In this document: positions 1 through 48,421 of the stretch, piece after piece | Numbering within the stretch: the first letter of the stretch is position 1 | Layout: each line of letters opens with the position of its first letter | Assembly (NCBI RefSeq): GCF_900112315.1 | Contig: NZ_FOLL01000004.1 | Location: 186,001 to 250,000, forward strand | Origin: Parapedobacter composti | GTDB lineage: Bacteria; Bacteroidota; Bacteroidia; Sphingobacteriales; Sphingobacteriaceae | DNA: 64,000 nt | Direction of reading: 5' to 3' | Made by a program: the position numbers and the translations under genes | Notes under the pieces: generated by a model | What the model saw: the letters and a program-made list of their open reading frames with translations, nothing else | Database searches by the model: none | What the model was told of the DNA's origin: nothing

Positions 1-67
1 CTTTTGGTGACGTAATAAAAATCCCAGCACGCACGCCTGCCTTTTGGCAGCCATCAATAATCCGGAA

Positions 68-1729
68 ATGAAACAGTTTGTCATCATCTTATTCCTTGCC
101 GCTGTATCAGCAACGAGCCACGCACAACTGTTTGTGCCCGCCAGCAAATTGTTCAGCCGCGCGGATTCGCTGCGCGGCCAGCTGACGCCACTGCGCACTT
201 GTTATGATATCAATTATTATCACCTTAACGTTGCCGTCGATCCGGACAAGCGCCACATCAATGGCTCCAACCTATTCCGGTTTACCGCAACAAGTGACTT
301 TTCACGCCTGCAGTTTGATCTCTTCGATAATCTGCGGATAGACAAGGTGGTATACCACGGGCAGGAACTACCCTTTAAACGCGAGTACCATGCAGTATTT
401 GTCGACTTTCCCCGTACCATTAAAGCGGGACAATTGGATTCGTTCACCGTGTATTATCAAGGGCATCCCGTACAAGCTAAACGGGCACCCTGGGATGGCG
501 GCTTTGATTTTAAAAAAGACAGTAACGGCAAGCACTGGATTGCCACAGCCTGCCAGGGACTTGGCGCAAGTGTTTGGTGGCCGAATAAAGACCACCTGTC
601 GGACGAGGTTGACAGCATGCTTATCAGCATCAGCGTCCCCACCGGGCTGACTAATGTATCAAACGGACGGTTCCGGGGCCAAACCGCTCTGGACAACGGC
701 TATACACGGTTTGACTGGTTCGTAAGCAACCCCATCAACAACTATAATGTAGCCGTGAACATTGGTGACTACGTGCATTTTGCCGATACCTTCCACGGAG
801 AAAACGGTGTGCTCGATCTCGACTATTGGGTGCTCCGAGAAAACGAGGCCAAAGCCAGGCCGCATTTCGATGCAAATATTAAGCCTATGCTGCGTGCCTT
901 TGAATATTGGTTCGGCCCGTACCCGTTTTATGAAGACGGTTTCAAGCTCGTAGAGACGGCCCACCTTGGCATGGAACACCAGAGCGCCATCGCTTATGGC
1001 AACAGGTACCAGAACGGCTATCTCGGCACGGATGGCTCGGGCACCGGCTGGGGCAACAAATGGGATTTCATCATTATCCACGAGGCGGGGCACGAATGGT
1101 TCGGCAACAGCATCACCTCCAAGGACCTTGCGGATATGTGGATACATGAGAGTTTCACGAACTATTCCGAATCGTTATACATCGATTATCATTTCGGTAA
1201 ACAGGCCGGACAGGAGTATATCCACGGCAACCGCCGGGGTATACAGAACCTCGCCCCCATCATCGGCAACTACCATGTCAATAACGAAGGATCCGGCGAC
1301 ATGTACAATAAAGGCGGCGTGTTGCATAACATGGTACGCACCATCATTGACGACGATGAAAAATGGCGGCAGATACTCCGGGGCCTCAATAAAGAGTTTT
1401 ATCACCGCACGGTTGACTACGAGGACGTGGTCAACTACATCAGCAAGCATTCCGGCAAAGATCTGTCCAGTGTTTACGCACAGTACGTTCGGCATGCCAA
1501 CATCCCGACCTTGGAATTTTATTTCAACGCGGACGGGAGGGCGTTTTGCAGGTGGACAGCAGATGAACCCAGGTTCGACATGCCGGTGCGTATCCGCGCG
1601 GGGGGTGGTAAATACCACGTTATCCAACCCACGCGGCGCCTGACACCCGTCGCCATACCCGGACTAACGCGTGACAATCTTGAGGTAGACACCTTTAACT
1701 TTTATATCGGCGTGCTCGTGAACGAATAA
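68..1729 (+). CDS. Exported M1 family zinc metallopeptidase
   Basis: Gluzincin aminopeptidase-like enzyme predicted to trim N-terminal residues from peptides outside the cytoplasm. From the Met at 68 (553 residues) a typical signal peptide MKQFVIILFLAAVSATSHAQ is followed by the M1 N-terminal beta domain, then the catalytic domain. The zinc motif HEAGH is at about residues 338-342 with the third ligand in HES (E361). The exopeptidase motif reads GMEH (301-304) rather than the classical GAMEN. The protein lacks the long C-terminal ARM domain of full aminopeptidase N, so it is a short M1 protein. A TTG at 44 in the same frame would add eight residues in front of the signal peptide and is not preferred. 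It converges with the DUF3857 gene, whose stop is 9 bases away. Confidence 0.88.
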   Translation: MKQFVIILFLAAVSATSHAQLFVPASKLFSRADSLRGQLTPLRTCYDINYYHLNVAVDPDKRHINGSNLFRFTATSDFSRLQFDLFDNLRIDKVVYHGQELPFKREYHAVFVDFPRTIKAGQLDSFTVYYQGHPVQAKRAPWDGGFDFKKDSNGKHWIATACQGLGASVWWPNKDHLSDEVDSMLISISVPTGLTNVSNGRFRGQTALDNGYTRFDWFVSNPINNYNVAVNIGDYVHFADTFHGENGVLDLDYWVLRENEAKARPHFDANIKPMLRAFEYWFGPYPFYEDGFKLVETAHLGMEHQSAIAYGNRYQNGYLGTDGSGTGWGNKWDFIIIHEAGHEWFGNSITSKDLADMWIHESFTNYSESLYIDYHFGKQAGQEYIHGNRRGIQNLAPIIGNYHVNNEGSGDMYNKGGVLHNMVRTIIDDDEKWRQILRGLNKEFYHRTVDYEDVVNYISKHSGKDLSSVYAQYVRHANIPTLEFYFNADGRAFCRWTADEPRFDMPVRIRAGGGKYHVIQPTRRLTPVAIPGLTRDNLEVDTFNFYIGVLVNE

Positions 1730-1737
1730 TATCCCCG

Positions 1738-5618: not shown

Positions 5619-5701
5619 TGTTGGTTAGGTAAATAAACCGGTGTTTCAATATAAAACAGAATAAATCAATTAATGCTGGCTAAAGTTATCGGTTTTTTTG
5701 G

Positions 5702-5709
5702 TAGGTTTG
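5702..5709 (+). promoter_or_regulatory. Bacteroidota -7 box upstream of mreB
   Basis: TAGGTTTG matches the consensus TAnnTTTG. It lies 35 bases before the mreB start, in the 126-base gap between mreB and the divergent DUF3857 gene. No clear TTTG -33 box is seen at the right distance. Confidence 0.5.
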
Positions 5710-5744
5710 CACATTAATTGAAAAACATCATATTGAGTTAGCAC

Positions 5745-6767: not shown

Positions 6768-6890
6768 GGGCGATATAACAACAGGCTGCAAGCAATAGGC
6801 TGCAGACCTACGACATAACGCGCGTACCGCATAAAACGCATAACGTAGCAGGCAGCTTTAGCGCATAAGCACCAAGCAAAAGACCCGGGT
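6768..6890. repeat. mreB-mreC spacer with short repeats
   Basis: No gene. GCATAA occurs three times (6829-6834, 6838-6843, 6863-6868) and AGGCTGCA twice (about 6783-6799). CTACG and CGTAG with flanking CTGC/GCAG could pair over a loop of roughly 30 bases. It may be a processing or attenuation site inside the operon, or simply low-complexity sequence. Confidence 0.3.
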
Positions 6891-7724: not shown

Positions 7725-8232
7725 GCTTTTGGTATTCAATATCGCCCGTTTCATTGTGCTGCTGATGCTGCAGGTTTTCCTGTTCAAAAACATCGGATAT
7801 TACAACCTGGCTACCCCTTTTCCCTATATCCTGTTCATCCTCCTTCTTCCCGTCGGCATGTCCAATTTCATGCTGTATTGCCTGGCCTTTGTCATGGGCA
7901 TCTCGGTAGATGCGTTTTACGACACCCTGGGGGTCAATGCAGCGGCGTCCGCAGCACTTGCCTGGGCGCGCATCGCCTTCATCCGTATCACCCTGCAAAC
8001 GGACCACTATGAAAACTACATGACACCGCTTTGGGGCAATGTACCGTTCAGGTGGTTTTTCCTTTATACCGTATTACTCACCCTAATCCATCATTCCGTG
8101 TTGTTCATGGTGGAAGCCTTCTCTTTCCATCAATTCCATTACACATTAATCCGTATTTTATTAAGTTGTATATTTACAGTCGTTATCATCATGTTGTTCA
8201 GCTTGCTGTTTTACCGGAGAAAACAGCGTTGA
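7708..8232 (+). CDS. mreD: Rod shape-determining membrane protein MreD
   Basis: 174 residues, hydrophobic throughout with about five membrane segments. It belongs to the MreD family and bridges MreC and the wall-synthesis enzymes in the inner membrane. The sequence alone is weakly conserved, so the call leans on its position between mreC and the PBP2 gene and on its hydropathy. The start at 7708 overlaps mreC; an alternative Met at 7717 would still overlap by 8 bases. The C-terminus ends in a basic RRKQR tail. Confidence 0.9.
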   Translation: MTIMARLLVFNIARFIVLLMLQVFLFKNIGYYNLATPFPYILFILLLPVGMSNFMLYCLAFVMGISVDAFYDTLGVNAAASAALAWARIAFIRITLQTDHYENYMTPLWGNVPFRWFFLYTVLLTLIHHSVLFMVEAFSFHQFHYTLIRILLSCIFTVVIIMLFSLLFYRRKQR

Positions 8233-8263
8233 AAGCAGGGTCACCGAAACATCTTCCGCGTAA

Positions 8264-10231
8264 ATGAACGGTCTTTTCGAACGGAAATATATTATTCAGG
8301 GCATCTTCATTGCCGTAGCGGTCATCATAACGGCACGGCTGTTTTATCTGCAGGTCGTAGATGATTCATACCTGCTATCCGCCAACAATAATGTGTTGCG
8401 TAAGATGATTATTTATCCGGCCCGGGGAGTAATTCTGGATCGAAACGGCGAGGTGCTGGTGCAGAATGAACCGGTTTACGACCTGCTGGTAACGCCCAGG
8501 GAGGTTAAGAATATCGATACGGCACTGCTTTGCGAGCTGGTGGGAATAGACATGGAGGGGTTCAAACGCCGCATGGAAAAGGCAAGGAGTTATTCGCCGT
8601 ACAAAGCATCACAGTTTGAAAAGCAGATTCCCGCAACAGCCTACGCCAAACTTCAGGAGCATTTATACAAGTTCCGGGGCTTCTACGTGCAGAACCGGAC
8701 GGTACGGAGTTACCCGGACAGTATCGCCGCCCAATTTTTAGGGTACATCCAGGAAGTGAATGATCGCGACATCGAGCGTTCGAATGGGTTTTACCGCCCC
8801 GGGGATTACATCGGCGCCAGTGGTGTCGAGAGCGCTTATGAAGAGTTGCTGCGGGGACAGCGGGGCGTGAAGAATGTGATGGTCGACGTGTTTAACCGGC
8901 CCCAGGGCGTATTTGCCGACGGCAAATACGACACACTGGCCGTGGCGGGCGAAGGATTGGTATCATCGCTGGACAGGGACTTGCAACTGCTGGCCGAAAA
9001 ACTGATGCACAATAAAATCGGCAGTGTGGTAGCCATAGAGCCTTCCACCGGCGAGATCCTGACGTTTGTCAGCAGCCCAAGCTATGATCCCAACATGATG
9101 GTGGGGCGCGAGCGGGGCAACAACTACATGAAGTTGTTGCATGACCCCTATAAACCCATGTTTATCCGGCCAATACAGGCACAATACCCCCCGGGTTCGG
9201 TATTTAAGGTTGTTGCTGCGCTTATCGCCCAGCAAGCGGGCGTTATCAACGCAAACACGGTATTCCACTGTCCGGGAGGATACCGATATGGCGGCGGACG
9301 GGCGTTTATGCGTTGTACCCATGTGGACGGCTCCATCCCGCTTGTGCCGGCCATCCAGCGTTCCTGTAACACCTATTTCGGCTACACCTATGCCCGGATG
9401 ATTGATCACCGCGGCATGCCATCGGCCAAGGCGTATGAACACTGGCGGGAAGCCGTGATGAAATTCGGTATCGGGCACCCACTGGGTATAGACCTGCCTG
9501 GCGAAAAAAGCGGCCTCCTGCCTTCAGCAGATTATTACACGAAACGATACGGAAATACCAAGTGGGGCTCGAGCTTCAACATCTCCTTATCTATCGGCCA
9601 GGGAGAAATGGGTATAACCCCGCTTCAGATGGCCAATATCATGGCCATTGTAGCCAACCGGGGCTTTTACTACCGCCCCCATCTTATCAAAGCCATCGGG
9701 GAGAAAAAAATCATCAAACCCGAGTTTACCGAACGGATATCGGCCGGTGTGGATCCCGCCTATTACGAACCCGTTATTGAAGGGCTGAGCCGTGCGGTGA
9801 ATATGCCCGGAGGAACGGCATATTCCGTCCGGATTGCCGATATCGAGATGTGTGGAAAAACCGGCACCGCCCAGAACCCTCACGGTGAGAACCATGCGGT
9901 ATTCTTTGCGTTCGCCCCGCGCGAAAACCCCAAGATTGCTATCGCCGTGTTCGTGGAAAACGCCGGTTACGGAGGCACATGGGCCGGCCCCATTGCCAGT
10001 ATGCTTGTGGAAAAGTACCTGAAAGACACCATCACCCTGCCGAAATATATACAAGACCGGATATATAACGCTAACTTGCTGCCCAAACTGAAAACAACGG
10101 AAAAGAAAGCCCCTGATACGGCCGGGTCAACGCAGAAACAGGCAAGCGTCAACCGGGCGGAAAGCAATAAAGAAGAAAATGTCGCGTTTGTTCACCACAG
10201 TGCTGTCGTAAATAGGTTTAGGCATGAGTAA
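8264..10231 (+). CDS. mrdA: Penicillin-binding protein 2, rod-complex transpeptidase
   Basis: 655 residues. One N-terminal membrane anchor (about 11-29) precedes the PBP dimerisation domain and a class B transpeptidase domain. Active-site motifs are SVFK (Ser312), SCN (S367) and KTGT (K532). It cross-links peptidoglycan during elongation together with the RodA glycosyltransferase encoded next. It carries a C-terminal tail of about 50 polar residues (KTTEKKAPDTAGSTQKQA and on) beyond the transpeptidase fold, which looks disordered. The end overlaps rodA by 8 bases. Confidence 0.95.
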   Translation: MNGLFERKYIIQGIFIAVAVIITARLFYLQVVDDSYLLSANNNVLRKMIIYPARGVILDRNGEVLVQNEPVYDLLVTPREVKNIDTALLCELVGIDMEGFKRRMEKARSYSPYKASQFEKQIPATAYAKLQEHLYKFRGFYVQNRTVRSYPDSIAAQFLGYIQEVNDRDIERSNGFYRPGDYIGASGVESAYEELLRGQRGVKNVMVDVFNRPQGVFADGKYDTLAVAGEGLVSSLDRDLQLLAEKLMHNKIGSVVAIEPSTGEILTFVSSPSYDPNMMVGRERGNNYMKLLHDPYKPMFIRPIQAQYPPGSVFKVVAALIAQQAGVINANTVFHCPGGYRYGGGRAFMRCTHVDGSIPLVPAIQRSCNTYFGYTYARMIDHRGMPSAKAYEHWREAVMKFGIGHPLGIDLPGEKSGLLPSADYYTKRYGNTKWGSSFNISLSIGQGEMGITPLQMANIMAIVANRGFYYRPHLIKAIGEKKIIKPEFTERISAGVDPAYYEPVIEGLSRAVNMPGGTAYSVRIADIEMCGKTGTAQNPHGENHAVFFAFAPRENPKIAIAVFVENAGYGGTWAGPIASMLVEKYLKDTITLPKYIQDRIYNANLLPKLKTTEKKAPDTAGSTQKQASVNRAESNKEENVAFVHHSAVVNRFRHE

Positions 10232-11495
10232 CCCGAATCGGAATAGGCTATTTGGCGGGCACGTTGATTGGTTTACCGTGCTATTATGGCTACTGCTATG
10301 CATTATTGGCTGGTTTAATATCCATGCGGCCGTTTTTGATCCGGAGTACCCGGGCCTGTTCAGCATGAACACCAACTATGGCAAGCAATCAATTTACATT
10401 TTCTCGGCCATGATTATTGCTTTGGCCATACTTATCGTAGACGCCAAGTTTTACAGTTCCGCCGCACCCCTCCTATACGCCCTTACCATTGTGCTGCTGG
10501 TCGTTGTGCTGGCCGTGGGACGTAATGTAGGCGGCAATCAATCATGGATTCCCATGGGCAACTTCCGCTTGCAGCCTTCCGAATTTGCCAAACTGGCCAC
10601 CTGTCTTTTGCTGGCAAGGTACCTCAGTACGCAAAGCAATAAAACGCCGACGTTCAGAAACCTCCTTGTTGGGGCGTCCATTGCTTTGCTGCCGGTTGTA
10701 TTGGTATTGCTTCAACGCGATACGGGCTCGGCACTGGTATTTTTCTCTCTTGTGTTTGTATTCTACCGGGAGGGCTATATCTCCGGCCAATGGATGCTTA
10801 TAGGCGGTCTGTCCATCCTGTTGTTTGTGCTCACATTGGCCTTCAATCAATGGCCCATTATCATTGCCCTCGCCATTGTAACGGGTTTCGGGATTTACAT
10901 TTTCCGGAAAAGACGAAAAGTAATCGCTTCGCTTGCGGTGCTGTTCGTTATTGCCGCAACCTATGTGTTTTGTGTTGAGTTTGTCTATCAAAATGTACTC
11001 CAGCCGCATCAACGTACACGTATAGACGTTGTATTGGGAAAAATTGACGACCCGCGTGGCGAAGGCTACAACCTTAACCAGTCCATTATAGCTATTGGGT
11101 CGGGGCAATTCTGGGGCAAAGGCTATCTACAGGGAACGCAGACCAAATTCAATTTCGTGCCCGAGCAGAGTACCGATTTTATCTTTTGCACCATCGGCGA
11201 AGAATGGGGTTTTGTAGGCTGTATGGTCATCATCGGCATCTACCTCACCCTGCTCCTGCGCATCGTCAATATTGCGGAACGCCAACGGACGGCCTTTGCG
11301 CGCATCTATGCCTACGGCGTTGCGTGCATCCTCTTTTTCCACTTCGCCATCAATATCGGGATGACCATCGGCATCGTACCCATTATTGGCATTCCACTGC
11401 CCTTTTTAAGCTATGGTGGCTCCTCTCTTTGGAGCTTTACTATCCTGCTATTCATTATGTTGAAATTCGATTCGAACCGGAAAGGAATTGTCTGA
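10224..11495 (+). CDS. rodA: Rod shape peptidoglycan glycosyltransferase RodA
   Basis: 423 residues, SEDS family, about ten membrane segments. Conserved stretches include LQPSEFAKLA, RDTGSALVF, GEGYNLNQSIIAIGSG, FVPEQSTDFIF and PFLSYGGSS near the C-terminus. It polymerises lipid II into glycan strands in partnership with PBP2. It is the last gene of the mre operon and is followed by a strong hairpin. Confidence 0.95.
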   Translation: MSNPNRNRLFGGHVDWFTVLLWLLLCIIGWFNIHAAVFDPEYPGLFSMNTNYGKQSIYIFSAMIIALAILIVDAKFYSSAAPLLYALTIVLLVVVLAVGRNVGGNQSWIPMGNFRLQPSEFAKLATCLLLARYLSTQSNKTPTFRNLLVGASIALLPVVLVLLQRDTGSALVFFSLVFVFYREGYISGQWMLIGGLSILLFVLTLAFNQWPIIIALAIVTGFGIYIFRKRRKVIASLAVLFVIAATYVFCVEFVYQNVLQPHQRTRIDVVLGKIDDPRGEGYNLNQSIIAIGSGQFWGKGYLQGTQTKFNFVPEQSTDFIFCTIGEEWGFVGCMVIIGIYLTLLLRIVNIAERQRTAFARIYAYGVACILFFHFAINIGMTIGIVPIIGIPLPFLSYGGSSLWSFTILLFIMLKFDSNRKGIV

Positions 11496-36719: not shown

Positions 36720-36757
36720 AAAAAAAAATGCCTAAATCACGGTACAAACGTGATTCA
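36720..36757 (-). promoter_or_regulatory. Hairpin plus T-run in the thrS leader
   Basis: On the minus strand AATCACG (36755-36749), a seven-base loop, then CGTGATT (36741-36735) form a 7-base stem, extendable to nine with a G-T and a T-A pair. It is followed within about six bases by nine T (36728-36720). The arrangement resembles an attenuator between promoter and start codon. No upstream leader peptide was identified. Confidence 0.45.
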
Positions 36758-36842: not shown

Positions 36843-39020
36843 CTACCATGCTAGCTTCACGGAGATCCCGTCCGGACTGTTTTCAAACTTTAGAAAGGCC
36901 GTTCCGCTTTCCTCATCCCAAGAGAAGCTGTGTTCAACAGCTTGTCCGGTACTGCTGGTTACTTCCCATCGGGTAGCCCTCGCTGGTAAGAGAATGCGCA
37001 TCACGTTGGTGGTATACAGCGGACTTTTTGCGATGAAGGTAAAACCGTTGCCTTCCGCTTTCTCCTTGCTGACGCGCGCAGCTGTGGCCAATACACGAGG
37101 TCTCATCCTGTCTTTTATGGAACTGATGTCATAAAGCAGGGCCTGTTCGCCAGGATTCACCACTTTCGTCTTAAGCACCGGTATCTCGGGGTCGAAAAGA
37201 TCAATGAAGCTGCCAGCAGCCACATATGGCGACCGATCAGGAGATTCGTCCAGAACGGAAATAACCCGATAAGGTCCCCTATTTAAACTGAAATAATTTT
37301 TAAAATGAAGCTCGTCATGTGTCAGTTCTTTGTAGACTCTTTGCAGCAAATCCATAAAACGGGCATCGCCATTTTCGGCGAGAACGAATTCCTTGGGATC
37401 GTTTCGCAGAATACATAGTTTTCCCTTACCGACCACATGTTCCCCCTCTTCGAACGGCCTGTCCAAGCCCAACGTTTTAAAAAGATGCTCGGAGGCCGTT
37501 GCAAAATTATGTTCCCCGCTGTTCCACCATTCCGGAACATTCTGAAACGGATCGTTATCCCTCCCGCAATAGACCAACACCCCGCCGCCCCTGACCCATT
37601 CGGCAAGATAACCATGTGACTGTTCATCCATCGGCTTCATCCCAGAATAGGATGCAATCAGGATTTTTATATCTTTCAGTGTTTCGTTGTAAGAGAGATT
37701 TTCCATGTGGACGGTTTGCACCGGCACCCCCCGCTTTAGCAGCGGAAGTGCCTGACCGTAAAAATTGGACAACTGGGGATCATTATAACCGTTATGTTCG
37801 GGAAAACGTTGAAACATCAAGGAGTTCGACATCAGCACGCCAATACCGTCGGATCCGTTCAGCCGATTATCCGTTCGTGGCATATGGTTCAACGTATTGA
37901 TCATTACCTGAACCTGTGTGGAATAATGTCTCGGTATTTGTTCTTTTTTATCGCTATCGGGACTGGTTTTGTATAATCCTTCATAGATCCGCTCCGGCCA
38001 AGGCATTACCTCAAACTTGTCGATACTCGGATAAAGCAATTGGGCCGCAAATGTCGCCTCATAATTCTTCTTATAATCGACCCAATCACGTGGCCAATCT
38101 TCAATAGGGTCCGTGAGGAAAAACATTTCCCTCCCCGTAGGGGCCGTCATGGACTCCATTGAGCCGTATTCCAGAAATGCCGTCTCAAAGACCCGTTCTT
38201 TCCTCGTCCCGTTGAAATAATTGGGCTCGCGGGCGGTACCTGTCCATACCTGAGCGATGTACCCATCCACTGACGGGAGTGAGGCAAGACTTGCTTCCGG
38301 ACTGACAATCTTCCATTGCGCGTAATTTACCAGCGAGTGCGTGGGTACATAACATTTCACATCCATCCCTTTGCTTTTTCCATATTGCTTCGCAAAGGAG
38401 AAGATCTCATCAAGGGCGTTATAATAGAGGTGATATTTCAGTTTATTGGACAGGTAAGTGTTCTCCGGCGATTCGTGCTGGGGTCTCCAATCAAATCCGT
38501 AATACGTCTTCCATTCTCGTTTAAACGCCTCGCTATAACCGGCCCTAGCCCAGAACTCGGGTTCTTCCATAAAAATAACGTCAATTCCTGCATCAATAAC
38601 CCGTTTGATGTGCCGTTCCTTCAGGTAGTTCAGAAAATTTTCCGTAGGCACGATATAAGGCACCATGCGCCCATGCCAAATGGTATCGCCGTTTTGTTGC
38701 ACCTGCCCCTCATCGAGATGCATCTTCCCGTCCCATTCTCCCGTAAAATAATCCTGGTATTGCCCCCAGGCGATGCCAGTCATGAAATGGGTAACATATC
38801 CCCTTTCTCTCCAAGATTTCACCCGCTCTTCGAAAGGCACTCTCCCTGACCGATCAGACGGGTTACCTCCAACCCCGTATACCATCACCGCATCCGATCG
38901 CACGTCAATGGTGGGCCTCCACTCCCTCGAGGTCTGAAAAGTAGTACGGATTTGTTGTTCAGTTTGGGCGAAAAGCTGAAGCGCCAGTCCAACCAAAATT
39001 GCGGTCATTAACGTTCTCAT
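36843..39020 (-). CDS. Exported TIM-barrel hydrolase-like protein, family unassigned
   Basis: 725 residues. A signal peptide (about 1-18, LALQLFA) is followed by a region of about 350 residues with alternating strands and helices suited to a TIM barrel, including AGIDVIFMEEPEFWARAGYS (E152, E153, E155) and FEVMPWPERIYEGLY (E337, E343) as candidate catalytic segments. Residues about 390-540 look like a Rossmann/glutaminase-like domain (GIGVLMSNSLMFQRFPEHN, IKILIASYSGMKPMDE, WVRGGGVLVYCGRDNDPF), and about 600-725 like a C-terminal beta domain. That three-part layout resembles GH42 beta-galactosidases, but I cannot assign a CAZy family. It is the last gene of the PUL and probably processes the imported or surface-bound glycan. 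Confidence 0.72.
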   Translation of the reverse strand: MRTLMTAILVGLALQLFAQTEQQIRTTFQTSREWRPTIDVRSDAVMVYGVGGNPSDRSGRVPFEERVKSWRERGYVTHFMTGIAWGQYQDYFTGEWDGKMHLDEGQVQQNGDTIWHGRMVPYIVPTENFLNYLKERHIKRVIDAGIDVIFMEEPEFWARAGYSEAFKREWKTYYGFDWRPQHESPENTYLSNKLKYHLYYNALDEIFSFAKQYGKSKGMDVKCYVPTHSLVNYAQWKIVSPEASLASLPSVDGYIAQVWTGTAREPNYFNGTRKERVFETAFLEYGSMESMTAPTGREMFFLTDPIEDWPRDWVDYKKNYEATFAAQLLYPSIDKFEVMPWPERIYEGLYKTSPDSDKKEQIPRHYSTQVQVMINTLNHMPRTDNRLNGSDGIGVLMSNSLMFQRFPEHNGYNDPQLSNFYGQALPLLKRGVPVQTVHMENLSYNETLKDIKILIASYSGMKPMDEQSHGYLAEWVRGGGVLVYCGRDNDPFQNVPEWWNSGEHNFATASEHLFKTLGLDRPFEEGEHVVGKGKLCILRNDPKEFVLAENGDARFMDLLQRVYKELTHDELHFKNYFSLNRGPYRVISVLDESPDRSPYVAAGSFIDLFDPEIPVLKTKVVNPGEQALLYDISSIKDRMRPRVLATAARVSKEKAEGNGFTFIAKSPLYTTNVMRILLPARATRWEVTSSTGQAVEHSFSWDEESGTAFLKFENSPDGISVKLAW

Positions 39021-39035: not shown

Positions 39036-39851
39036 TTACGGCACCATCACCTCTATCGGTTCACTATAATTCCATCGTCTGGTTCCGCTGCCCCTGGGTG
39101 TATCGTAATTGATACGGGCTGCCGCACGGATAAAAACGATGCGTCCGGACGGGATGGTCCCATTGGACTCGATGGTGATTGCCTCGCCGAACAGACTGTT
39201 GAAAGATGAACCGGAATATTCAATTGCGCTCGACCAACGTTCATCCCGTGCACGATATCCAACCGTAGCAGAATAGCTTACAAAAAGCTGAATATCCGTC
39301 ATGTTTTGAAAGCTGCTGCTATACCCACCCATCGGTTCTATTTTCTCACGGAATTCACTTTCCGAAACCGCACGGGTTACTCGCACCTTCGCCTGAATCT
39401 TGCCGTTGCTCACGCGCGGTTCTTCCACCCACTCTACTTTAAGGAACGGTTGCACTTCAAACCGGACTTTCGTCACTCCTTCGATGTCGATGTCCTTTGT
39501 TTCGTCGGCGAGCGGAACACCGCGTTCATCTTCCCTCAATAAGGGAATGAACGGTCCATCTACTTGGACATTATATCTTCCTTTGAACAGTTTTGTGTGC
39601 TGGAACGTTCCGTCGGGCATACAGAAAAAATCGGGATTAGGTACCACGTTGTCTCCCCAACTGGTTTCAATGAGACGTACCCTGATCCCTTCACTTCCCT
39701 GGTCAGTCAGCACCCGTTCACCGGTAGCCACATCCACCACTTCGCCCCATAATGTTTCGGCGGGAGCATCATAGTTGTCCAACTCGAACAAACTACAGGA
39801 AGCCAAAAAGAAAGAAGATATCAACAAAATAAAAAAGGTTAACTGTTTCAT
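39036..39851 (-). CDS. DUF3823 lipoprotein, PUL accessory protein
   Basis: 271 residues with a lipoprotein signal (FFLASC, Cys19). A DUF3823-type N-terminal beta-sandwich (ETLWGEVVDVATGERVLTDQ, then FKGRYNVQVDGPFIPLL) is followed by a second beta domain. Proteins of this family accompany SusC/SusD pairs and are thought to sit on the cell surface and bind glycan; direct evidence is scarce. It lies immediately downstream of susD. Confidence 0.82.
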   Translation of the reverse strand: MKQLTFFILLISSFFLASCSLFELDNYDAPAETLWGEVVDVATGERVLTDQGSEGIRVRLIETSWGDNVVPNPDFFCMPDGTFQHTKLFKGRYNVQVDGPFIPLLREDERGVPLADETKDIDIEGVTKVRFEVQPFLKVEWVEEPRVSNGKIQAKVRVTRAVSESEFREKIEPMGGYSSSFQNMTDIQLFVSYSATVGYRARDERWSSAIEYSGSSFNSLFGEAITIESNGTIPSGRIVFIRAAARINYDTPRGSGTRRWNYSEPIEVMVP

Positions 39852-39878: not shown

Positions 39879-41939
39879 TTACCTGTTGGGTTGCTGATCT
39901 ATGACGGGGCTCTTCGACACTTCCCCACCAGGGATGGCAAAATAGTAGTCCACGATATTGTATTCGAAAGTCTTCAAGCTAACCCATTGGAACCGGGCGT
40001 CGAAAAAATACTTCCCGCTTTCGGTAGAGAAGAATGGGTAGAGTCCGCGGAAACGATAACGCGTGTTGTTACTGAAGGCGTCTTTGTTTCTGTATTCACC
40101 CCAGAAGCCGTCCCTGCCTTCATAGTGCTGTACTCGCCATCGGCGGATATCCCATTTGGATTTATGTTCCAGTGCCAACTCCTTGCGCCGCTCCTTCCTT
40201 ACAATATTCCGGCCGTTCTCGTCCGGTGTAATTGCGCCGGAAAGTAAGGATGCACCTGCTCGCTCCCTGATATCGTTGATCGCCTGGGTAGCCACTTGCA
40301 TCAGGTCCGCTCCATCGGGGGACGGCTCACCGGCAAGCGCGAGCTCAACGGCAGCTTCGGCAGCATTCAAAAGCACTTCGGCATACCGCATCAGCACAAA
40401 ATGTTGGTCCGATCTTCCTTCACCTGCCTCGAAAGATGGATCAGGGTTCAGCCATTTTCGGCCATAAAGACCGGTCAAACACCCTTCACCGTTATCAAAG
40501 AACGGCCCGTTAGCACCGGCAGCAGTCATCTGCGTCCCGTTGTACGTAACCACCTCTTGGCTGCTCCCTTCCCTGGGGCTGAGGTAAAGGGTTTTAGGAT
40601 TCGCCCTATAGGCATTTAGGTGCTGATACCTCGTTTCAGCTGCTTGGTAAGAATAGTCATTAAACAGGGGCTGTATCGGCTCGGCACCTGTATAGACGCC
40701 TGCCCGTATTTCGATGTCCGTCCCTTTGAATCGGTCGCCCGGGAAAATCACATAGGCACGTAAACGCGGCTCTGCATCCTTGAAAAAATCGAGCGGCGTG
40801 TCATATAATAGGTACTGCCCTTGCGTGTTGGAGTTGCCGGTAGTCACCTTGATTGTTCCGTCGGGATACCGGTCAAACCCTTCAAACAGCTCCAAAAAAT
40901 CGAGCGTGGGGCATGTTCCTGACGCGAGTGGGGCTTTAAAGATAAACGGTGCACTATAGGCATCATACCCATGCGTAGCCACGGGGAAAGAATATTCCTT
41001 CACATAGATATTCTCGGGGCTTTCCAAATCGCTGAACATATCCACCATGTTCTGGTATTGAGCCTCCCGATCATTCGCGACCCATCTTTTCTTATAAAGG
41101 GAATAGTTTCTGCTTTTTATAATTTCCTGGGCAGCGTTATAGGCCTCTCTGAAATATTTTATCGATGCCGCCCGCCATGAGTTTTCCGCAAAGCCGATTA
41201 CCCGTACCCCGGTTTTTTCCCCCAATCCGGTGAGACGGCCCGGGACCGTTTCATTGTATTTGGCCACACTTCCGGCATACAGCATTGCTTCCGACTTAAA
41301 CGCCAGGGCAACGTACCGGTTTGCATAACCTCTTTTTGGGCTTGTCGGCAGCAACAGTTCAACGGCTTGGTCAAAATCGGCAAGTACCTGATTCCAGGTC
41401 TCCTCTTCGCTGGCCCGCGGTACCTCCAGCGCTTCCGGATCTGCAGGATAATTGATAACCCTCGTCACCAGCGGTACACCTCCAAATCGCCTGGCCATAG
41501 CGCTGAACACGAATGCCCTTACAAAGTATGCTTCACCAAGATAGTGGTTATACCTGCTCTCGGGGAATGCATCTTCGTGGAGCGGAAGGTTTTCAATCAA
41601 GTAGTTGGCATCCCTCAAAAGTGTCATGGCCATACTCCAGTAAGGTGTCCGTTCCCCGGTAAAAGCCGTGCTTATCCCATCGCGGTTCAGGGCCTCGCCC
41701 GTTCCCTCAATACCCATCGCGCCCAGCCACGAATTAAATTCCACCCCCCATTGGGCCATGTACTTGAAATCTTCGAAGGGCATATGGCTATACATCCGTG
41801 CCAGGTAGACTTCCATACCTGATTCGTTGGTCAACAGGTCTTCATCACCGATAATGTTCGTCGGTGGGATATCCAAATCCACACATGAGGTGGATAAAAC
41901 GGAAATAACCAGCGCAAGTCTATATACTTTTTTCATCAT
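39879..41939 (-). CDS. RagB/SusD family surface glycan-binding lipoprotein
   Basis: 686 residues, longer than most SusD proteins (500-600). The lipoprotein Cys is at residue 19 (VLSTSC), followed by the usual VDLDIPPTNIIGDEDLLTNE. Helical TPR-like segments such as YFVRAFVFSAMARRFGGVPL and the C-terminal RNIVRKERRKELALEHKSKWD are SusD hallmarks. It forms a lid over the SusC barrel encoded 11 bases upstream and captures oligosaccharide at the surface. Confidence 0.93.
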   Translation of the reverse strand: MMKKVYRLALVISVLSTSCVDLDIPPTNIIGDEDLLTNESGMEVYLARMYSHMPFEDFKYMAQWGVEFNSWLGAMGIEGTGEALNRDGISTAFTGERTPYWSMAMTLLRDANYLIENLPLHEDAFPESRYNHYLGEAYFVRAFVFSAMARRFGGVPLVTRVINYPADPEALEVPRASEEETWNQVLADFDQAVELLLPTSPKRGYANRYVALAFKSEAMLYAGSVAKYNETVPGRLTGLGEKTGVRVIGFAENSWRAASIKYFREAYNAAQEIIKSRNYSLYKKRWVANDREAQYQNMVDMFSDLESPENIYVKEYSFPVATHGYDAYSAPFIFKAPLASGTCPTLDFLELFEGFDRYPDGTIKVTTGNSNTQGQYLLYDTPLDFFKDAEPRLRAYVIFPGDRFKGTDIEIRAGVYTGAEPIQPLFNDYSYQAAETRYQHLNAYRANPKTLYLSPREGSSQEVVTYNGTQMTAAGANGPFFDNGEGCLTGLYGRKWLNPDPSFEAGEGRSDQHFVLMRYAEVLLNAAEAAVELALAGEPSPDGADLMQVATQAINDIRERAGASLLSGAITPDENGRNIVRKERRKELALEHKSKWDIRRWRVQHYEGRDGFWGEYRNKDAFSNNTRYRFRGLYPFFSTESGKYFFDARFQWVSLKTFEYNIVDYYFAIPGGEVSKSPVIDQQPNR

Positions 41940-41950
41940 TGTTTCTGGAA

Positions 41951-44900
41951 CTAAAAGTTGAGTGAAAGCCCGGCCGTAAATGTTTTGTTCAACGGGTACA
42001 TCCGTCCTAAATCATCATCGGGGTGCTCAGGGTCAACAAATTTAACATTCGTAATGGTCAACAAATTATAGGCGTTGGCGAATACCCTCAGGTCCATCGA
42101 TGGAAGTGCCCGAAATTTCGGGAGGGTATACCCCAATTCGATGCTTTTGAGCCGAAGATAGGCCGTGCTCACGCGGTTAAACGTAGAGTTTGCAAACGGA
42201 TAGTTGCCTGTGAATCCGTAATAACCGCTGATCCATTCCAGAGAAGGATCCCAAGGGTCGGCCAGTGGATCAACCGGGCGCCACCTGTCTACATATTGTT
42301 CGAGTGTCCCACCGCCATTGGTTCCCCAGATTGAATAAAGCGGTTCCTTGTATTCCATGGAGCCGAGAGCCGAACCCTGCAGCAGGAAACTGATATCGAA
42401 CTTCTTATAGTTGGCATCAAACACGAGACTATAATTTAACCATGGCGTTTGGTCAAACGCAATGGGATGTACATCCAAACCGTTGATTTCCCCGTCGCCA
42501 TTCCAGTCGAGGTATTTATAATCACCCGGCAAGATCGTGCGATCTTTGTATATTGGGTAGCTCCATATGTCCTGCCAGCTCTCGAAGCGTCCCACCCCTT
42601 GATAACCGAACTGCATCCCCTGGAAACGGTTGTTCAGGTTATCATTCCGCCATTTATCATAGGAATTTCCGTATGGCCCGTTTTCAGACGCGACAAGATA
42701 TTTCTGACGAGTAATTGTTCCGATTGCTTTCACCCGGTAGGATAGCTCGCCTACCCTGTTCCGGTGTGAAATTTCGACATCCATCCCGAAATGTTTGTCA
42801 CTGTCGAGATTTTCCCGGGGGGCGGTAGCACCCACAACGGTCGGAAGGTCACCCGTGCGGCGCGCAAAACGTCCTTTCCTTTCTCTTTCGAAATAATCTA
42901 CTGAAAAACCAAAAAGGCCGTTCCATCCTTCAAAATCAATCCCGACGTTTAACGTGTGGGCGGTAAACCACGTGATCATCTGGTTAGGGAGTGCCAGCGT
43001 TGAAACGCCATACACGAATTCGTTTCCGAAAATATATCCGGGAGCATACTGGTTGTAATATCCCTGTGCCGCATTTCCCGACGTGGCGGGATATACATAG
43101 CCGGTGGCCCAGTCGAATTGCAGTTCGCCGTCATCTCCCAACACGCCATAGCTTGCACGTAGCTTCAACTGGTCTACGAATGATGTCAGCGCCCAATTTC
43201 TGAAGAAAGGCTCTTCCGAGATACGCCAACCAACCGATGCAGAAGGAAAGAATCCCCATTGATGACCAGGGGCAAACTTCGATGAGCCGTCGTAGCGGAA
43301 CTGCGCTTCAGCTATATACCGGTCGCTGAACGTATAGTTAGCCCGTCCGAAAAGCGCGGCGTTAGCCAGTTGGTAAACGTCATTCAATGAGCTGCTCATG
43401 CCTCCCAACTGGTTCTCATCAACCCCGCCAAAGAGATAGTCCATGCCGAAGGCAAGATCGCGTTGCGCATAAAAATTATCGCCGGTATGTTTTTGTACTT
43501 CCCAGCCCAGTAACCCGGTCACCTGATGCTTACTGCTGAACGTCCGGTCGTAATTTGCAATGAACTGTCCCAGAACCTGCCGCCTATTGAACATCTCCCT
43601 CCGGATCTGGTTGGGAGAACTGTTGTTATACAATTTCGCTTCATACGAGTCGGTCAAAGCATTATATGCATACTGGTAATACTCTCTCCGGTTTATATGG
43701 TTATCATCCGTCCGGTAATCATAGCTTACCAACGCCTTTGCTGATAAGCCTTGCAGGACATCCGTTAGTGCGCCGAAATCGTAATTGAGGCTGGCAGAAG
43801 ATTGAAAATGTTTCTGGCCATGCTTGCGATACCCCGAAATGTCGGAAGTCATCTTCGCCACAGTATTCTCCTCAAGGTCCAGTCCCTCGTGGTTGAGCAT
43901 CGTATTTTCTGGATCGGCATACGCGGGGAAGAGCACACCCTGTCGCCAATAGTTCCGGATAATATCCACCGAACTGGAGTATGGGCTATTCCGTTGGTCC
44001 ACCACTCCGCTCAGGTTAAGATCAAAGGTCAGGCCATTAGAAATCTCCGTACTGATGTTCGACCGGAGATTCACTTTGCTGTAATTTAAATCCCCTGATT
44101 TGAAGAAACCTTCCTGGTAAAGATGGCCAAACCCGATATAATACTGGGTTTTATCGCTTCCTCCCGTGATACTCAGGTCCTGCTGGGCTTGCGGCGCATA
44201 ATCCGAAAAGATAAGAGACGTCCAGTCCGTCGTGCGGCGTGCACCCGTACGAAAGGCCTCAAAATCGTTCTCGGTGAACACGATATTACCCCCGTTTATA
44301 TTGTTCATTGCCATTTCATTGTAGATGGTCATCGTTTCATAAGGGTCAGCCAGCACCGGCAATCCCGACGGCCGTTGAAAGGTGTAAGAGGTATTGACAG
44401 CCACGTTTGTCCGTCCCTCCCTCGTTCCTCTTTTCGTAGTTACAAGCACTACCCCATTAGCGGCCCGCACGCCGTAGATGGCGGCAGAGGCGTCTTTCAA
44501 TACCGATACATCTTCGATATCATTGGGGTTAAGCCGCTGGAAGTCTGCCGTAGTGCGCGGCACCCCGTCAATAACCACCAACGGACTGCCCAAACCCCGG
44601 ATATCGAAGTTGGCGGCGAAAGATCCAGGTTCCGCACTTCGTTGCCAAACCCTTACACCGGGGACACGACCGGTGAGCATATTCTGAGGGTTCTCGTTTC
44701 TCGTCTGCATCATCTCGGCGCCCTTTATTCCCGATACCGCACCCGTTAGGGTAACCTTTCGTTGTGTGGAATAACCCACCAGCACCACCTCGTCGAGCGT
44801 CTGGTGTTCATACTCCAGTGTTACATTAATCACGGTGCGACCGTTCACGGGTTCCTCCTTCATGACAAACCCCAGGTAGTGGAATTGCAACACGGCGTCC

Positions 44901-45121
44901 TGCGTTGTATTAATGGTGTACCTGCCATTACTATCCGTTCCGGTTTTCGCCGTGCCGTCTTTTACCGTCACGGTGGCGCCCACAAGCGGTTCATTATCGC
45001 TACTGATAACAATCCCTGTCACGGTGATCTCTTGTGCCAGCGATACAGCCGGGATAAGAAGAAGCGCAAACACGATTGCATGCGGAAAAATTTTCTTTTC
45101 AATACTTAGATTCTTAATCAT
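41951..45121 (-). CDS. SusC/RagA family TonB-linked outer membrane transporter
   Basis: 1056 residues. A signal peptide ending VSLAQ (about residue 30) is followed by a carboxypeptidase-regulatory-like domain (GIVISSDNEPLVGATVTVKD), a plug with SVLKDASAAIYGVRAANGVV then LVTTKRG, and a 22-strand-type barrel ending in AGLSLNF. It imports oligosaccharide across the outer membrane using TonB energy, with the SusD lipoprotein. It follows the GH76 gene by 28 bases. Confidence 0.95.
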   Translation of the reverse strand: MIKNLSIEKKIFPHAIVFALLLIPAVSLAQEITVTGIVISSDNEPLVGATVTVKDGTAKTGTDSNGRYTINTTQDAVLQFHYLGFVMKEEPVNGRTVINVTLEYEHQTLDEVVLVGYSTQRKVTLTGAVSGIKGAEMMQTRNENPQNMLTGRVPGVRVWQRSAEPGSFAANFDIRGLGSPLVVIDGVPRTTADFQRLNPNDIEDVSVLKDASAAIYGVRAANGVVLVTTKRGTREGRTNVAVNTSYTFQRPSGLPVLADPYETMTIYNEMAMNNINGGNIVFTENDFEAFRTGARRTTDWTSLIFSDYAPQAQQDLSITGGSDKTQYYIGFGHLYQEGFFKSGDLNYSKVNLRSNISTEISNGLTFDLNLSGVVDQRNSPYSSSVDIIRNYWRQGVLFPAYADPENTMLNHEGLDLEENTVAKMTSDISGYRKHGQKHFQSSASLNYDFGALTDVLQGLSAKALVSYDYRTDDNHINRREYYQYAYNALTDSYEAKLYNNSSPNQIRREMFNRRQVLGQFIANYDRTFSSKHQVTGLLGWEVQKHTGDNFYAQRDLAFGMDYLFGGVDENQLGGMSSSLNDVYQLANAALFGRANYTFSDRYIAEAQFRYDGSSKFAPGHQWGFFPSASVGWRISEEPFFRNWALTSFVDQLKLRASYGVLGDDGELQFDWATGYVYPATSGNAAQGYYNQYAPGYIFGNEFVYGVSTLALPNQMITWFTAHTLNVGIDFEGWNGLFGFSVDYFERERKGRFARRTGDLPTVVGATAPRENLDSDKHFGMDVEISHRNRVGELSYRVKAIGTITRQKYLVASENGPYGNSYDKWRNDNLNNRFQGMQFGYQGVGRFESWQDIWSYPIYKDRTILPGDYKYLDWNGDGEINGLDVHPIAFDQTPWLNYSLVFDANYKKFDISFLLQGSALGSMEYKEPLYSIWGTNGGGTLEQYVDRWRPVDPLADPWDPSLEWISGYYGFTGNYPFANSTFNRVSTAYLRLKSIELGYTLPKFRALPSMDLRVFANAYNLLTITNVKFVDPEHPDDDLGRMYPLNKTFTAGLSLNF

Positions 45122-45149: not shown

Positions 45150-46589
45150 TTATTTGGTCAGTTCATACCGCGACAAAACCGCGTATTCTGCCGCAAAAGC
45201 GAAAGTAAACATCCCCTCGGTATCGTTTTTACCCCTATCCCGATTCCATCCCACCAACAGGTTTGTGGGCAGGAATCCGTTGTGGAGAAAATGTTCATAC
45301 GCGTAATCAAGATTTTTCTGAAAAGCGTCGATATATGTTTCCGTACCTTGATAGGCCGGATAAAAATCAACGTATCCCCGCATCAGCACGCCGTTGAACC
45401 AGTTCCTGAACCCGCTGATGTCGAAGGTATAATAATCAGGCAGGTTTGCCCCTTTCTTTGCAAAGTAGGAGAAGCTGGCGTCCGCCAATACAGAACCATC
45501 CGCACGGTATTTATCATTTCCCGTGGCCCGGTACAGGTCGGCTGCACCCGACAGCATCGTACCGCTATTGTAGGTGATGGCCGGCCCCACTCGGTCGCGG
45601 CACGTGATTCCCCTGCGGTAATTAACACCGTCGATTTGCTCCAACTGGGGGCTTCCCGGAGTGCAGCCACCCATCATATCATCATACACGCCGTCATTAC
45701 GGAGAAGGTGTTGTTTCTGCCATTCATAGATTTTTTCCGCGAACATGAGGTAATATTCGCCTTTGCTCATCTGCACGGCCTTCCTGGTTCTCCGATCTGC
45801 TGGATCGATGTAATGATGGGTTACCTCATCGCTTTTCCCTTTGTAGAGTTCATGCAGCCAAACCAACGGACTCACCATTGGGCCGTTGCTGCAAGCATGC
45901 TTGGTAACATATCCGGGGCCCCATGGAATCCCCCCTATCTCGTTCCCGTTCGCATCAAACGTGCAGTCCCAGCCATCGAGCACATACGCTGTGAGGTATT
46001 CCGCTTTTTCGAGAAACAAGTTATTGCCGGTTACCTTATACGCCTGGAGAAATTCGCGGATCAGCCACATCTGATCATCGTAAACGTTTTCAACTCCTTC
46101 TACCCTAGCCGCACCTTTGGAGTTTGCGCGATGCACGCCGTACACCGTCCACTCGTTCGTGCCGGTATAGGAAGTTAGCGTAAAGGTTCCAAGGTAGAAA
46201 TCGGCCGCATCGTAAAGTTTCATCAATTCTGCCTCATATCGGTCGAAATGCGCATTATAACGCGAAGCGTCGCCATGCTCCTTTTCCGCTTCCAACGCGT
46301 GAAGGATTGCTGTAACAGCCTCGATGGCGCTTGTATACATCCATATACTTCCTATTTCATCCGACCGTCTGTTGGTATGCGGGTTATAATACCTTGCCAT
46401 TGTCATCCCACTTCCCGTAAAATAAGCGCCGAGTGCGCTATCGGTAATCTCCATGGCACGGGTCAGCGACCTTGCGGCAAGATGCTCTTCCACCGGAGGC
46501 CGTATGTCATCATCATCTTTCATTTTATTACAGGCATAGGAAAAGAAACACAAAAGGCTTCCGATCGCGATAATCATACTTTTTTTCAT
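45150..46589 (-). CDS. Glycoside hydrolase family 76 lipoprotein (alpha-1,6-mannanase type)
   Basis: 479 residues. The lipobox FFSYAC gives Cys20, followed by Asp-rich KMKDDDD, a pattern seen in surface-exposed Bacteroidota lipoproteins. The body is an (alpha/alpha)6-barrel protein with the GH76 catalytic Asp pair in NVYDDQMWLI (D171, D172) and other family segments YNSGTMLSGAADLYRATGND and RGYVDFYPAY. The family cleaves alpha-1,6-mannose linkages in the mannan backbone. It is encoded upstream of susC, so it is probably the surface endo-enzyme that creates fragments for import. Confidence 0.88.
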   Translation of the reverse strand: MKKSMIIAIGSLLCFFSYACNKMKDDDDIRPPVEEHLAARSLTRAMEITDSALGAYFTGSGMTMARYYNPHTNRRSDEIGSIWMYTSAIEAVTAILHALEAEKEHGDASRYNAHFDRYEAELMKLYDAADFYLGTFTLTSYTGTNEWTVYGVHRANSKGAARVEGVENVYDDQMWLIREFLQAYKVTGNNLFLEKAEYLTAYVLDGWDCTFDANGNEIGGIPWGPGYVTKHACSNGPMVSPLVWLHELYKGKSDEVTHHYIDPADRRTRKAVQMSKGEYYLMFAEKIYEWQKQHLLRNDGVYDDMMGGCTPGSPQLEQIDGVNYRRGITCRDRVGPAITYNSGTMLSGAADLYRATGNDKYRADGSVLADASFSYFAKKGANLPDYYTFDISGFRNWFNGVLMRGYVDFYPAYQGTETYIDAFQKNLDYAYEHFLHNGFLPTNLLVGWNRDRGKNDTEGMFTFAFAAEYAVLSRYELTK

Positions 46590-46609: not shown

Positions 46610-48421
46610 TTAATCCAATCTAATACTGTGTATTGCTAGCTTATTCTCTCCGGTATTGGCTTCCCCGTTATACACACCCAACACCAAGGTCACATCGGAG
46701 CCGTTGAATTGCGAAAGGTCGTAGCTAAACAAGGCGTATCCCTCAGGGTCACTCGCTCCGCCACTACCATGCTTAAACTTCCAACAACCATCGCTCGCCG
46801 GTTCCGCTTCATCGGCCGTATTGGAGGCTGGCGCAAGGTGGGTCACCGTTCCATTGTTTTCAATTGCGGTAAGCTTAAAATACGTAAAGTTGCTTCCGAA
46901 ATTGCGGGCACTAAGCGTTAACCGGTTATTTCCGGGCGCAATTGAAAATTTAGAATAGAGGTATGCTTCCGGCACTTCGGTGTCCACCTCGGGGGTGTTC
47001 CGGGTCTTGATGATGTATCCTTCAGAAGGGAACACTTCCGGATCTTTCCTCAATGGCATGAACATCCACTCCGCAGCAACGTGACCTATCCCCCTCCATG
47101 CCCGGTATGCGCCGACATAGTTGTCGCGATTACCACTTACCGGACTGATTCCGGTAAACGATTTCTTCGTGTGCGGCATGGTTGATCTCACGGTTTCATG
47201 AGAAAGTTTCCAACCGCTGACAACCTCGGTTCCCGGCAACCAGTCCCAGTTTTCCACTTTTCTGTCGGCAAACCGGATGGCACGTAAAACAAGCTGCTTC
47301 CAATAATCGCCGGTAGATTGCCTATAGATTCCAATGGCAATGATAACCTCTTTGTCTACATACGCACTCAGGTCGAAATCAAAATCGGCATAGCTTCCAG
47401 AGCCGTAGGTACGGGTTGAGCCTACTTTCTCCGCCTTCGGCTGGGGGGCATTAAGGTCAATGACCTGTACACCGAAATAGGCCGGCGCAGCCGCATCTGC
47501 ATTATGGGTTTGAACCCTCAACGAGAGAATCCTGTTTTCTTGGGTAATTAATTTGCTGCCGTATACGAACGAATCAAACATGTCCATATCCGCAGGATTA
47601 TTCCGGTCATCGCCATTGTTGCGAATCTGCAGTGTGGTCCCTTCGTTCTGTTCCTCCCAAGCACCCCTAAAATCAAGCGCGCACATGTAGTTACATGCCC
47701 AGTCCCAATGCGGGTATGCATCAGCATTCCTTCCTCCCCGGTATTCATTATAATACCATTTATCTGCATTTCGAAGGTCGAGGGCGGTCAAGCCGCGGAG
47801 CAGTTCTTCACTTCCAATCTGGACGTCTACGGTTGCAATACCATCGGTAAAATCAGTGCTTGAAACGGCACGAACAAGGGTCACATACCCTTCTTTGCTA
47901 AAGCTAATATTGTAATCACCTTCAACCAGGTTGCTTATTTCGTATGTCCCGTCATCTCCGGTGGTAACAGCCCTTGTGGCACCGCCAACGGAGACCGTTA
48001 CCCCAGACAGCGGTTCACCATCATTCTGGGCATCCACTACCGTACCCACAATCTTTGCGGAGGCATTAACCAGCTCCACATCAACGGTGGCTAAACCCGC
48101 GTCGTCGAACCTGTTTGCCGTAACCGTCAGGCTAACCGCCAACCATCCATCTTTCGAGAAAGTGACCGCCCAAGTCTTATAAGCTACATTTTCGAAGATA
48201 TACCTCCCATCACTCCCGCTCGTGGTTACCTTATCCTCTTCGTTTATCCCTGACAGCGTGACCTGTACTCCTGAAATGGGTTCACCATTGCCATCCTTGA
48301 CAATGCCGGCAACATTACCTATCCGGATTTCTTCGCGATCTATGTTTTTTTTACAGCAGACCAGGAAGGCGAGCATTAATCCGCTCAACGCAAAATGGTA
48401 GAGGTTTTTCAAATTTTTCAT
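46610..48421 (-). CDS. PUL lipoprotein, putative surface glycan-binding protein
   Basis: 603 residues. Lipoprotein signal (MLAFLVCC, Cys at 22 or 23), then two carboxypeptidase-regulatory-like sandwiches (about 37-108 and 113-195: GNVAGIVKDGNGEPISGVQV and KIVGTVVDAQNDGEPLSGVT). The rest is beta-rich with two similar modules: one contains YADFDFDLSAYVDKEVIIAI then GIYR, the other YALFSYDLSQFNGSDVTLVL then GVYN, each ending in a similar IRF/IRL strand. They look like jelly-roll carbohydrate-binding domains. There is no catalytic motif. It is first in the PUL operon, nearest the operators. Function is inferred from layout and context. Confidence 0.75.
   Translation of the reverse strand: MKNLKNLYHFALSGLMLAFLVCCKKNIDREEIRIGNVAGIVKDGNGEPISGVQVTLSGINEEDKVTTSGSDGRYIFENVAYKTWAVTFSKDGWLAVSLTVTANRFDDAGLATVDVELVNASAKIVGTVVDAQNDGEPLSGVTVSVGGATRAVTTGDDGTYEISNLVEGDYNISFSKEGYVTLVRAVSSTDFTDGIATVDVQIGSEELLRGLTALDLRNADKWYYNEYRGGRNADAYPHWDWACNYMCALDFRGAWEEQNEGTTLQIRNNGDDRNNPADMDMFDSFVYGSKLITQENRILSLRVQTHNADAAAPAYFGVQVIDLNAPQPKAEKVGSTRTYGSGSYADFDFDLSAYVDKEVIIAIGIYRQSTGDYWKQLVLRAIRFADRKVENWDWLPGTEVVSGWKLSHETVRSTMPHTKKSFTGISPVSGNRDNYVGAYRAWRGIGHVAAEWMFMPLRKDPEVFPSEGYIIKTRNTPEVDTEVPEAYLYSKFSIAPGNNRLTLSARNFGSNFTYFKLTAIENNGTVTHLAPASNTADEAEPASDGCWKFKHGSGGASDPEGYALFSYDLSQFNGSDVTLVLGVYNGEANTGENKLAIHSIRLD

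Follow-up and report, generated by a model that had tools for sequence, protein, structure and literature searches.

The 64,000-nucleotide stretch of Parapedobacter composti DNA analyzed here (the window) carries six consecutive genes on the minus strand, the last of which, hereafter X, starts with ATG and encodes a protein of 725 amino acids (Table 1). In the order of transcription, these genes encode an SGBP-like protein, a GH76 enzyme, SusC, SusD, a DUF3823 protein, and X, and the gaps between them measure 20, 28, 11, 27, and 15 bp (range 11-28 bp). The neighbouring SusC/SusD pair is accompanied by degradative enzymes, as is characteristic of a SusCD-type PUL, and this same-strand cluster ends with X, as a preliminary description of the DNA had proposed when it called X the last gene of a GH76 PUL. 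The polysaccharide targeted by the cluster is probably mannose-rich and fungal.

Table 1. Coordinates of X, its gene cluster, and the predicted active-site codons in the window.
Feature	Position	Strand	Remarks
SGBP-like lipoprotein, SusC-N-like repeats	46610..48421	-	Weak NCBIfam matches, all far below cut-off; putative role; its cluster in 22/50 well-flanked loci
Divergent GH76, lipoprotein-like start SYACNKMKDDDD, motif NVYDDQMWL	45150..46589	-	PF03663, E 4.3e-17, two stretches
SusC-like TonB-dependent transporter	41951..45121	-	PF07715 Plug, E 7.8e-20
SusD-like	39879..41939	-	PF07980, E 1.3e-33
DUF3823 lipoprotein-like partner, immediately upstream of X	39036..39851	-	PF12866, E 6.3e-09; its cluster in 36/50 well-flanked loci
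X	36843..39020	-	Signal peptide at about 1-19, judged by eye; barrel, about 25-380; Rossmann-like domain starting near 393; then beta strands up to 725
Codons E152-E153-P154-E155, end of barrel strand 4	38556..38567	-	Strand 148-152; Glu at all three positions in 128/128; E153 predicted acid/base
Codon D304 (predicted position of nucleophile or base) at the end of barrel strand 7	38109..38111	-	128/128; strand 298-303; putative mapping from topology and motif
Terminator-like hairpin downstream of X	36733..36757	-	Weak: 1 found vs mean 0.5 in shuffles

The GH76 of the window is divergent, with 63.1 bits in two stretches as compared to 142 and 132 bits for the GH76 genes on contig C37 of the same genome. 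The NVYDD motif is retained in 36 of the 40 members of its cluster, and 25 of these 40 display a crude lipobox. The window GH76 itself has a start of the lipoprotein type followed by an acidic run, which we take to be a surface export signal. For X, the N-terminus MRTLMTAILVGLALQLFAQ resembles a plain signal peptide by eye, in line with what had been noted before. A crude lipobox pattern was present in 15 of 86 X copies (a few due to over-long ORF starts), so some copies may be lipoproteins instead of free periplasmic proteins. Genome-wide, six GH76 rows (two being pieces of the window GH76 and one lying below the cut-off), eight GH92 matches, and one GH125 match were obtained. Enzymes of all three families act on α-mannosides. 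A role of X as the only exo-mannosidase was rejected, since its own genome holds GH92 and GH125.

Library searches left X without a family name. Up to an E-value of 10, no Pfam family matched X, including the GH42 barrel model PF02449, which was also absent from the ten Pfam families that were listed for 63 family members with a limit of E 1. NCBIfam returned nothing for X up to E 10, and the best PHROGs match had an E-value of only 0.24. DUF4350 was weakly matched by 20 of the 63 family members (best E 0.00018), matches that presumably correspond to the GATase-like middle domain. Among PDB sequences, phmmer and profile searches with X, A1, and A2 gave chance-level chains only, with no GH164 chain up to E 10. 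X is unmatched to any described family in Pfam, NCBIfam, and the PDB sequences, and the initial remark that it could not be placed in a known family was borne out within the first two. Among the open-access PMC papers listed, none was seen to describe X relatives, nor a clan GH-A enzyme with Asp as nucleophile.

A scan of the genome collection returned 159 stretches matching the pattern, 156 of which encode relatives of X. The best 80 of these 156 all belong to Bacteroidota and share 61-75% identity with X, over most or all of its length, which excludes a chance ORF; the 725-residue frame reported earlier is genuine. Judged from these sequences, X is a tight, widespread family. Whole-genome searches at E up to 0.001 found X in 4 of 395 genomes of the phylum. 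With the limit relaxed to E 10, matches were obtained in 4 of the 9 genus genomes, one of them a 54-residue fragment, and in 146 of the 400 order genomes, where at least 8 matches are weaker than E 0.01 and some are fragmentary. A single homologue was detected in 72,556 plasmid records, on a Paenibacillus cellulositrophicus plasmid. This homologue is nearly full length (42% identity), seems by eye to have no signal peptide, and is encoded directly after a regulator of the GntR/LacI type and a sugar ABC importer consisting of two permeases and a binding protein. Phage records (50,697) contained no X homologue. No sequence intermediates linking X to GH42 were found, and the weak order-genome matches at E 0.03-0.5 may include a bridge to other families. 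X is a common family that is nameless in the libraries searched, and a single assigned activity would annotate well over a hundred loci. Broken copies were also seen: a 54-residue remnant lies at G399:C22:372533-372694 (L118) in a genome of the window's genus, and in another genome X is broken into two ORFs (L161, 8672-10946).

The structure of full-length X was predicted with AlphaFold2 from 63 sequences, namely X itself and those of 62 of the 80 loci, giving a pLDDT of 86.4 and a pTM of 0.89. The model displays a TIM barrel followed by a Rossmann-like middle domain and β domains, i.e. the GH42-like three-domain layout that the preliminary description had anticipated; the TIM barrel, whose absence it had named as grounds for refutation, is present in the model. 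Foldseek's best matches to the full-length model were GlmA 8oug (E 1.2e-17, TM 0.52/0.49), IaSGT, GH42, and GH164. With VIA-align, the full-length model matched GH42 (Z 17.1, 4.4 Å, 525 aligned), GH164 (Z 15.1, 4.9 Å, 500 aligned), GlmA 5gsl (Z 14.9, 5.0 Å, 524 aligned), and a GH151 fucosidase (Z 12.3, 5.7 Å, 479 aligned). Matches of the GH42 type span residues 19-635 approximately, and a C-terminal stretch (about 636-725) lies outside them. A barrel-only model, for which 53 sequences of the 57-row alignment A2 were used, was weaker (pLDDT 74.4). Its VIA matches included GlmA 5gsl (Z 19.1, 4.2 Å, 329 aligned), GH42 1kwg (Z 18.5, model 6..371 vs chain 1..400), and likewise GH14 β-amylases; GlmA and GH42 rows are less than 1 Z apart in this list and hence tie, and GH42 leads with the full-length model. 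Foldseek ranked a GH191 α-galactosaminidase first for the barrel alone (E 5.8e-06). According to the models, X is a TIM-barrel glycosidase fold of the GH42 layout. The fold alone leaves α versus β specificity unsettled, because the barrel-only matches include both GH191 α-galactosaminidase and GH14 β-amylases.

Conservation was assessed in 128 X proteins longer than 600 residues, with shorter copies excluded and some genomes counted twice. E152, E153, E155, D304, D308, E337, W341, and R344 are invariant in all 128 homologues, E307 is found in 127, E347 in 90, and E343 in 83. DSSP places the barrel strands of the model at residues 26-30, 44-48, 76-82, 148-152, 222-227, 253-256, 298-303, and 336-338; residues 266-269 and 272-275 form a hairpin, and strand 393-397 opens the Rossmann-like domain. 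Because the alignment to 1kwg starts at residue 1 of that chain and residue 25 of X, strand 26-30 was taken as barrel strand 1, which would assign E152, E153, and E155 to strand 4, D304 to strand 7, and W341 to strand 8. By eye, the N-E-P of GH42 aligns with E152-E153-P154, the GH42 segment 'NEPSHYG..YSPAAQ.SFQKWL' with EEPEFWARAGYSEAFKREW, and 'VMELQPGQVNW' with FLTDPIEDWPRDW. The strand 7 position was read as D304 from topology and motif, with E307 close by. No invariant Asn-Glu pair, the acid/base pair of GH42, was found in the X barrel among 87 sequences. With hhalign, X aligned to GH42 proteins in the middle domain only (probability 6), and against six GH42 proteins the barrels stayed unaligned (probability 0.04 for the barrel part); as this profile-profile comparison left the barrels unmatched, residues were mapped from topology and from motifs read by hand. 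Local confidence is low at the active-site ends of the model, with a pLDDT of 68 for residues 151-160, 72 for 301-310, and under 50 for 111-121.

Under this mapping, Asp304 most likely occupies the strand 7 nucleophile position, and Glu152 would stand where the usual Asn is expected, so that both would deviate from the clan GH-A pattern. To our knowledge, an Asp nucleophile is unusual in clan GH-A. If Asp304 were the nucleophile, X would offer a natural test of why enzymes of this clan keep Glu there. The EEPE motif singled out previously is indeed found at 152-155, and the WPER motif is present as well, at 341-344 (P340-W341-P342-E343-R344) instead of the 340-344 given for it. As for the catalytic residues then proposed, E152/E153/E155 stand as invariant residues of strand 4, but E337 or E343 as nucleophile does not. 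E343 was rejected, being another residue in 45 of the 128 homologues, and is unlikely to be catalytic as only 83 keep Glu there; E337 was demoted, since it is invariant yet lies on strand 8 by topology, close to the Trp lying beneath the sugar in GH164.

Comparison with characterized enzymes gave several partial likenesses. GH42 β-galactosidases (e.g. 1kwg and 4uzs) have the three-domain layout in common with X over about 515-530 aligned residues, with Z 16-17 for most rows. Unlike GH42, X fails to match PF02449, lacks the Asn-Glu pair of strand 4, carries an extra C-terminal stretch, and, by the putative mapping, has Asp where Glu is expected on strand 7. The GH164 β-mannosidase Bs164 resembles X in layout (Z 15.1), in its occurrence in Bacteroidota, and in its link to mannose-related PULs. 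The residue set of Bs164 is N159-E160, E297, W336, R341, and E346 (PMC7105311), so that E152-E153 and D304 of X face N159-E160 and E297; X has no sequence match to the PDB chains of Bs164. By eye, W341 and R344 on strand 8 of X resemble W336 and R341 of Bs164, and E347 is kept in only 90 of 128 X proteins. The two GH164 PULs described for this enzyme family come without α-mannose families (PMC7105311). Foldseek's best matches were GlmA, a GH35 exo-β-D-glucosaminidase, and IaSGT. In these two enzymes, the nucleophile is Glu, in contrast to the presumed Asp304 on strand 7 of X, and no sequence relation to either was detected. GlmA, like X, has an acid instead of Asn beside the acid/base, namely Asp178, to which the amino group is bound in GlmA. 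The GlmA review notes that catalytic residues predicted by sequence comparison alone proved unreliable there. In GH164 and GH35, an Asn contacts the sugar O2. Finally, the GH151 α-L-fucosidase ALfuk2 also combines a barrel, a Rossmann, and a C-terminal domain; its assigned catalytic residues are Asp154 (nucleophile, strand 4) and Glu235 (acid/base, strand 6), whereas X has Glu, not Asp, on strand 4. A GH151-like mechanism on strands 4 and 6 of X was rejected, as no invariant acid was seen at the end of strand 6. Further literature was drawn on (PMC6566704, PMC8861115, PMC10154630, PMC9213526).

Genomic context was evaluated in those 50 of the 80 loci where X is flanked by more than 9 kb in both directions; clusters were named from one or two scanned representatives. 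GH76 occurred in 33 of these well-flanked loci, GH92 in 30, a GtaA-type six-hairpin protein in 24, SusC together with SusD in 36, and DUF3823 in 36. Across homologues, GH92 and SusCD are therefore about as frequent partners of X as GH76. Some α-mannan enzyme was located near X in 40 of the 50; those without a labelled one are L019, L021, L023, L053, L064, L071, L072, L073, L076, and L077. A further set comprised 45 X-holding stretches out of 47 picked by hand, the other two being without X. Here, GH92 lay within five ORFs of X in 35 stretches and any α-mannan enzyme in 37, leaving L160, L162, L163, L170, L184, L194, L198, and L199 without a labelled one. By chance, about 4% would be expected from the enzyme counts of the window's own genome, and a binomial figure for the association would not be a true probability, because the loci are related. 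The GH76/mannan setting assigned to X in the preliminary description was supported by these counts (40/50 and 37/45).

Taken with the fold and the residues, this setting leads to a reading to which we give a probability of about 0.5: X would be an active, exo-acting glycoside hydrolase with a GH42-type three-domain fold that works downstream in an α-mannan utilization operon, with catalysis by E153 and D304 and likelier on a β linkage. The surface GH76 lipoprotein would free oligosaccharides from α-mannan, SusC/SusD would import them, and periplasmic X would take off a terminal or side-chain sugar beyond the reach of GH92 and GH76. In the proposed active site, Glu153 on strand 4 would serve as general acid/base, Asp304 on strand 7 would provide the nucleophile (or base) position, and Glu152 would replace the Asn that contacts O2 in GH164 and GH35. 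X most likely acts as an exo-enzyme on imported oligosaccharides, after GH76; it was placed after import because of the lipoprotein start of GH76, the plain signal peptide of X, and the Paenibacillus homologue that seemingly lacks a signal. A β-type linkage appears more likely than an α-type one by analogy, since the nearest full-length structural relatives (GH42, GH164, GlmA, and IaSGT) are mostly β-specific. The activity of X would point to an α-mannan linkage left out of current pathways.

The partners of X and its altered residues are the reason for which an α-acting or fucose-like activity was retained as an alternative. X might be an α-mannosidase or another α-acting enzyme on a repurposed GH42-type barrel, where Asp304 on the α face would be the general acid and Glu152, placed at O2, the base, proceeding by direct inversion or via a 1,2-anhydro intermediate as in GH99. 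GH76, GH92, and GH125 are all α-mannoside enzymes, both catalytic positions, as mapped, depart from the β-retaining pattern, the barrel alone brings GH191 to the top of the Foldseek list, and GH151 is an existing enzyme of GH42 layout for an α-L-linkage. Against this stand the mostly β-specific closest full-length folds and the eight GH92 matches and one GH125 match already in the genome, and we consider an α-acting X improbable, if the best placed of the alternatives. Equally speculative is a wider proposal, namely that X is the founder of a GH family with changes at both catalytic positions of the clan GH-A machinery (Glu for Asn, and Asp for the strand 7 nucleophile). Inversion or assistance from O2 would then allow its GH42-type barrel to cleave α-mannosidic or fucose-like linkages, and X would be the enzyme so far missing from a widespread GH76/GH92 α-mannan pathway.

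Somewhat more doubtful is a GH164-like β-mannosidase for β-capped mannans or the Man-β-1,4-GlcNAc core of N-glycans. The GH164 fold match, the partnership with GH92, the presence of GH20 at one locus of X (L159), and the Trp and Arg of strand 8, comparable by eye to those of Bs164, are consistent with such an activity, but Asn159-Glu160 and Glu297 of Bs164 contrast with Glu-Glu and Asp in X, and no endo-N-acetylglucosaminidase was seen among the selected annotated neighbours, which are a minority of all neighbours.

A release from decorated α-mannan of L-fucose, or of D-arabinose or L-galactose as sugars sharing its configuration, has a slightly smaller chance again. It is suggested mainly by one locus (L157; G531:C1:438000-457900, 355-11164), where an X paralogue and GH92 lie beside genes for L-fucose dehydrogenase, a fuconolactonase-like and a KDF-hydrolase-like protein, an SDR, FucP, and a LacI regulator. 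By family labels this is a complete L-fucose oxidation set, with L-fucose dehydrogenase and FucP over the NCBIfam cut-off and the fuconolactonase-like and KDF-hydrolase-like proteins below it. FucP-like genes also occur in L158 and L164 (78% to the FucP of L157; 6 and 5 ORFs from X, respectively) and in L191 (35%), and the GH151 fucosidase has the same layout as X. However, just 4 of the 45 stretches contain FucP-like genes, as do 2 of the first 80 loci (at 25-30%); moreover, L157, L158, and L164 look related, because they have one insertion near residue 404-420 in common. The residues of GH151 on strands 4 and 6 likewise differ from the strand 4 Glu of X and from its sixth strand, at whose end no invariant acid was seen. 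L058, L063, and L069 each contain two copies of X, the second of which carries an insertion near residue 404-420.

Least probable by a clear step is an action on an amino sugar as in archaeal GlmA (GH35), with Glu152 in the role of Asp178: GlmA 8oug and 5gsl top the Foldseek and barrel lists, respectively, GlmA also swaps the Asn before the acid/base for an amino-group-binding acid, and GH20 is near X in L159, but no amino-sugar enzyme was seen among the annotated recurrent neighbour clusters, GlmA retains its Glu nucleophile, and its lead in the barrel list is a tie with GH42, which is ahead for the full-length model.

Two further features of the loci were recorded. GtaA-type six-hairpin proteins (PF16335, 'glutaminase A'; e.g. 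L029, 15779-18277, and its cluster) recur in 24 of the 50 well-flanked mannan loci, and because of this recurrence they may be glycosidases rather than glutaminases. In L046 (12361-14795), the X PUL includes a 3-keto-disaccharide hydrolase (PF06439) and a GFO/IDH/MocA gene, which suggests a link of this PUL to oxidative glycoside cleavage.
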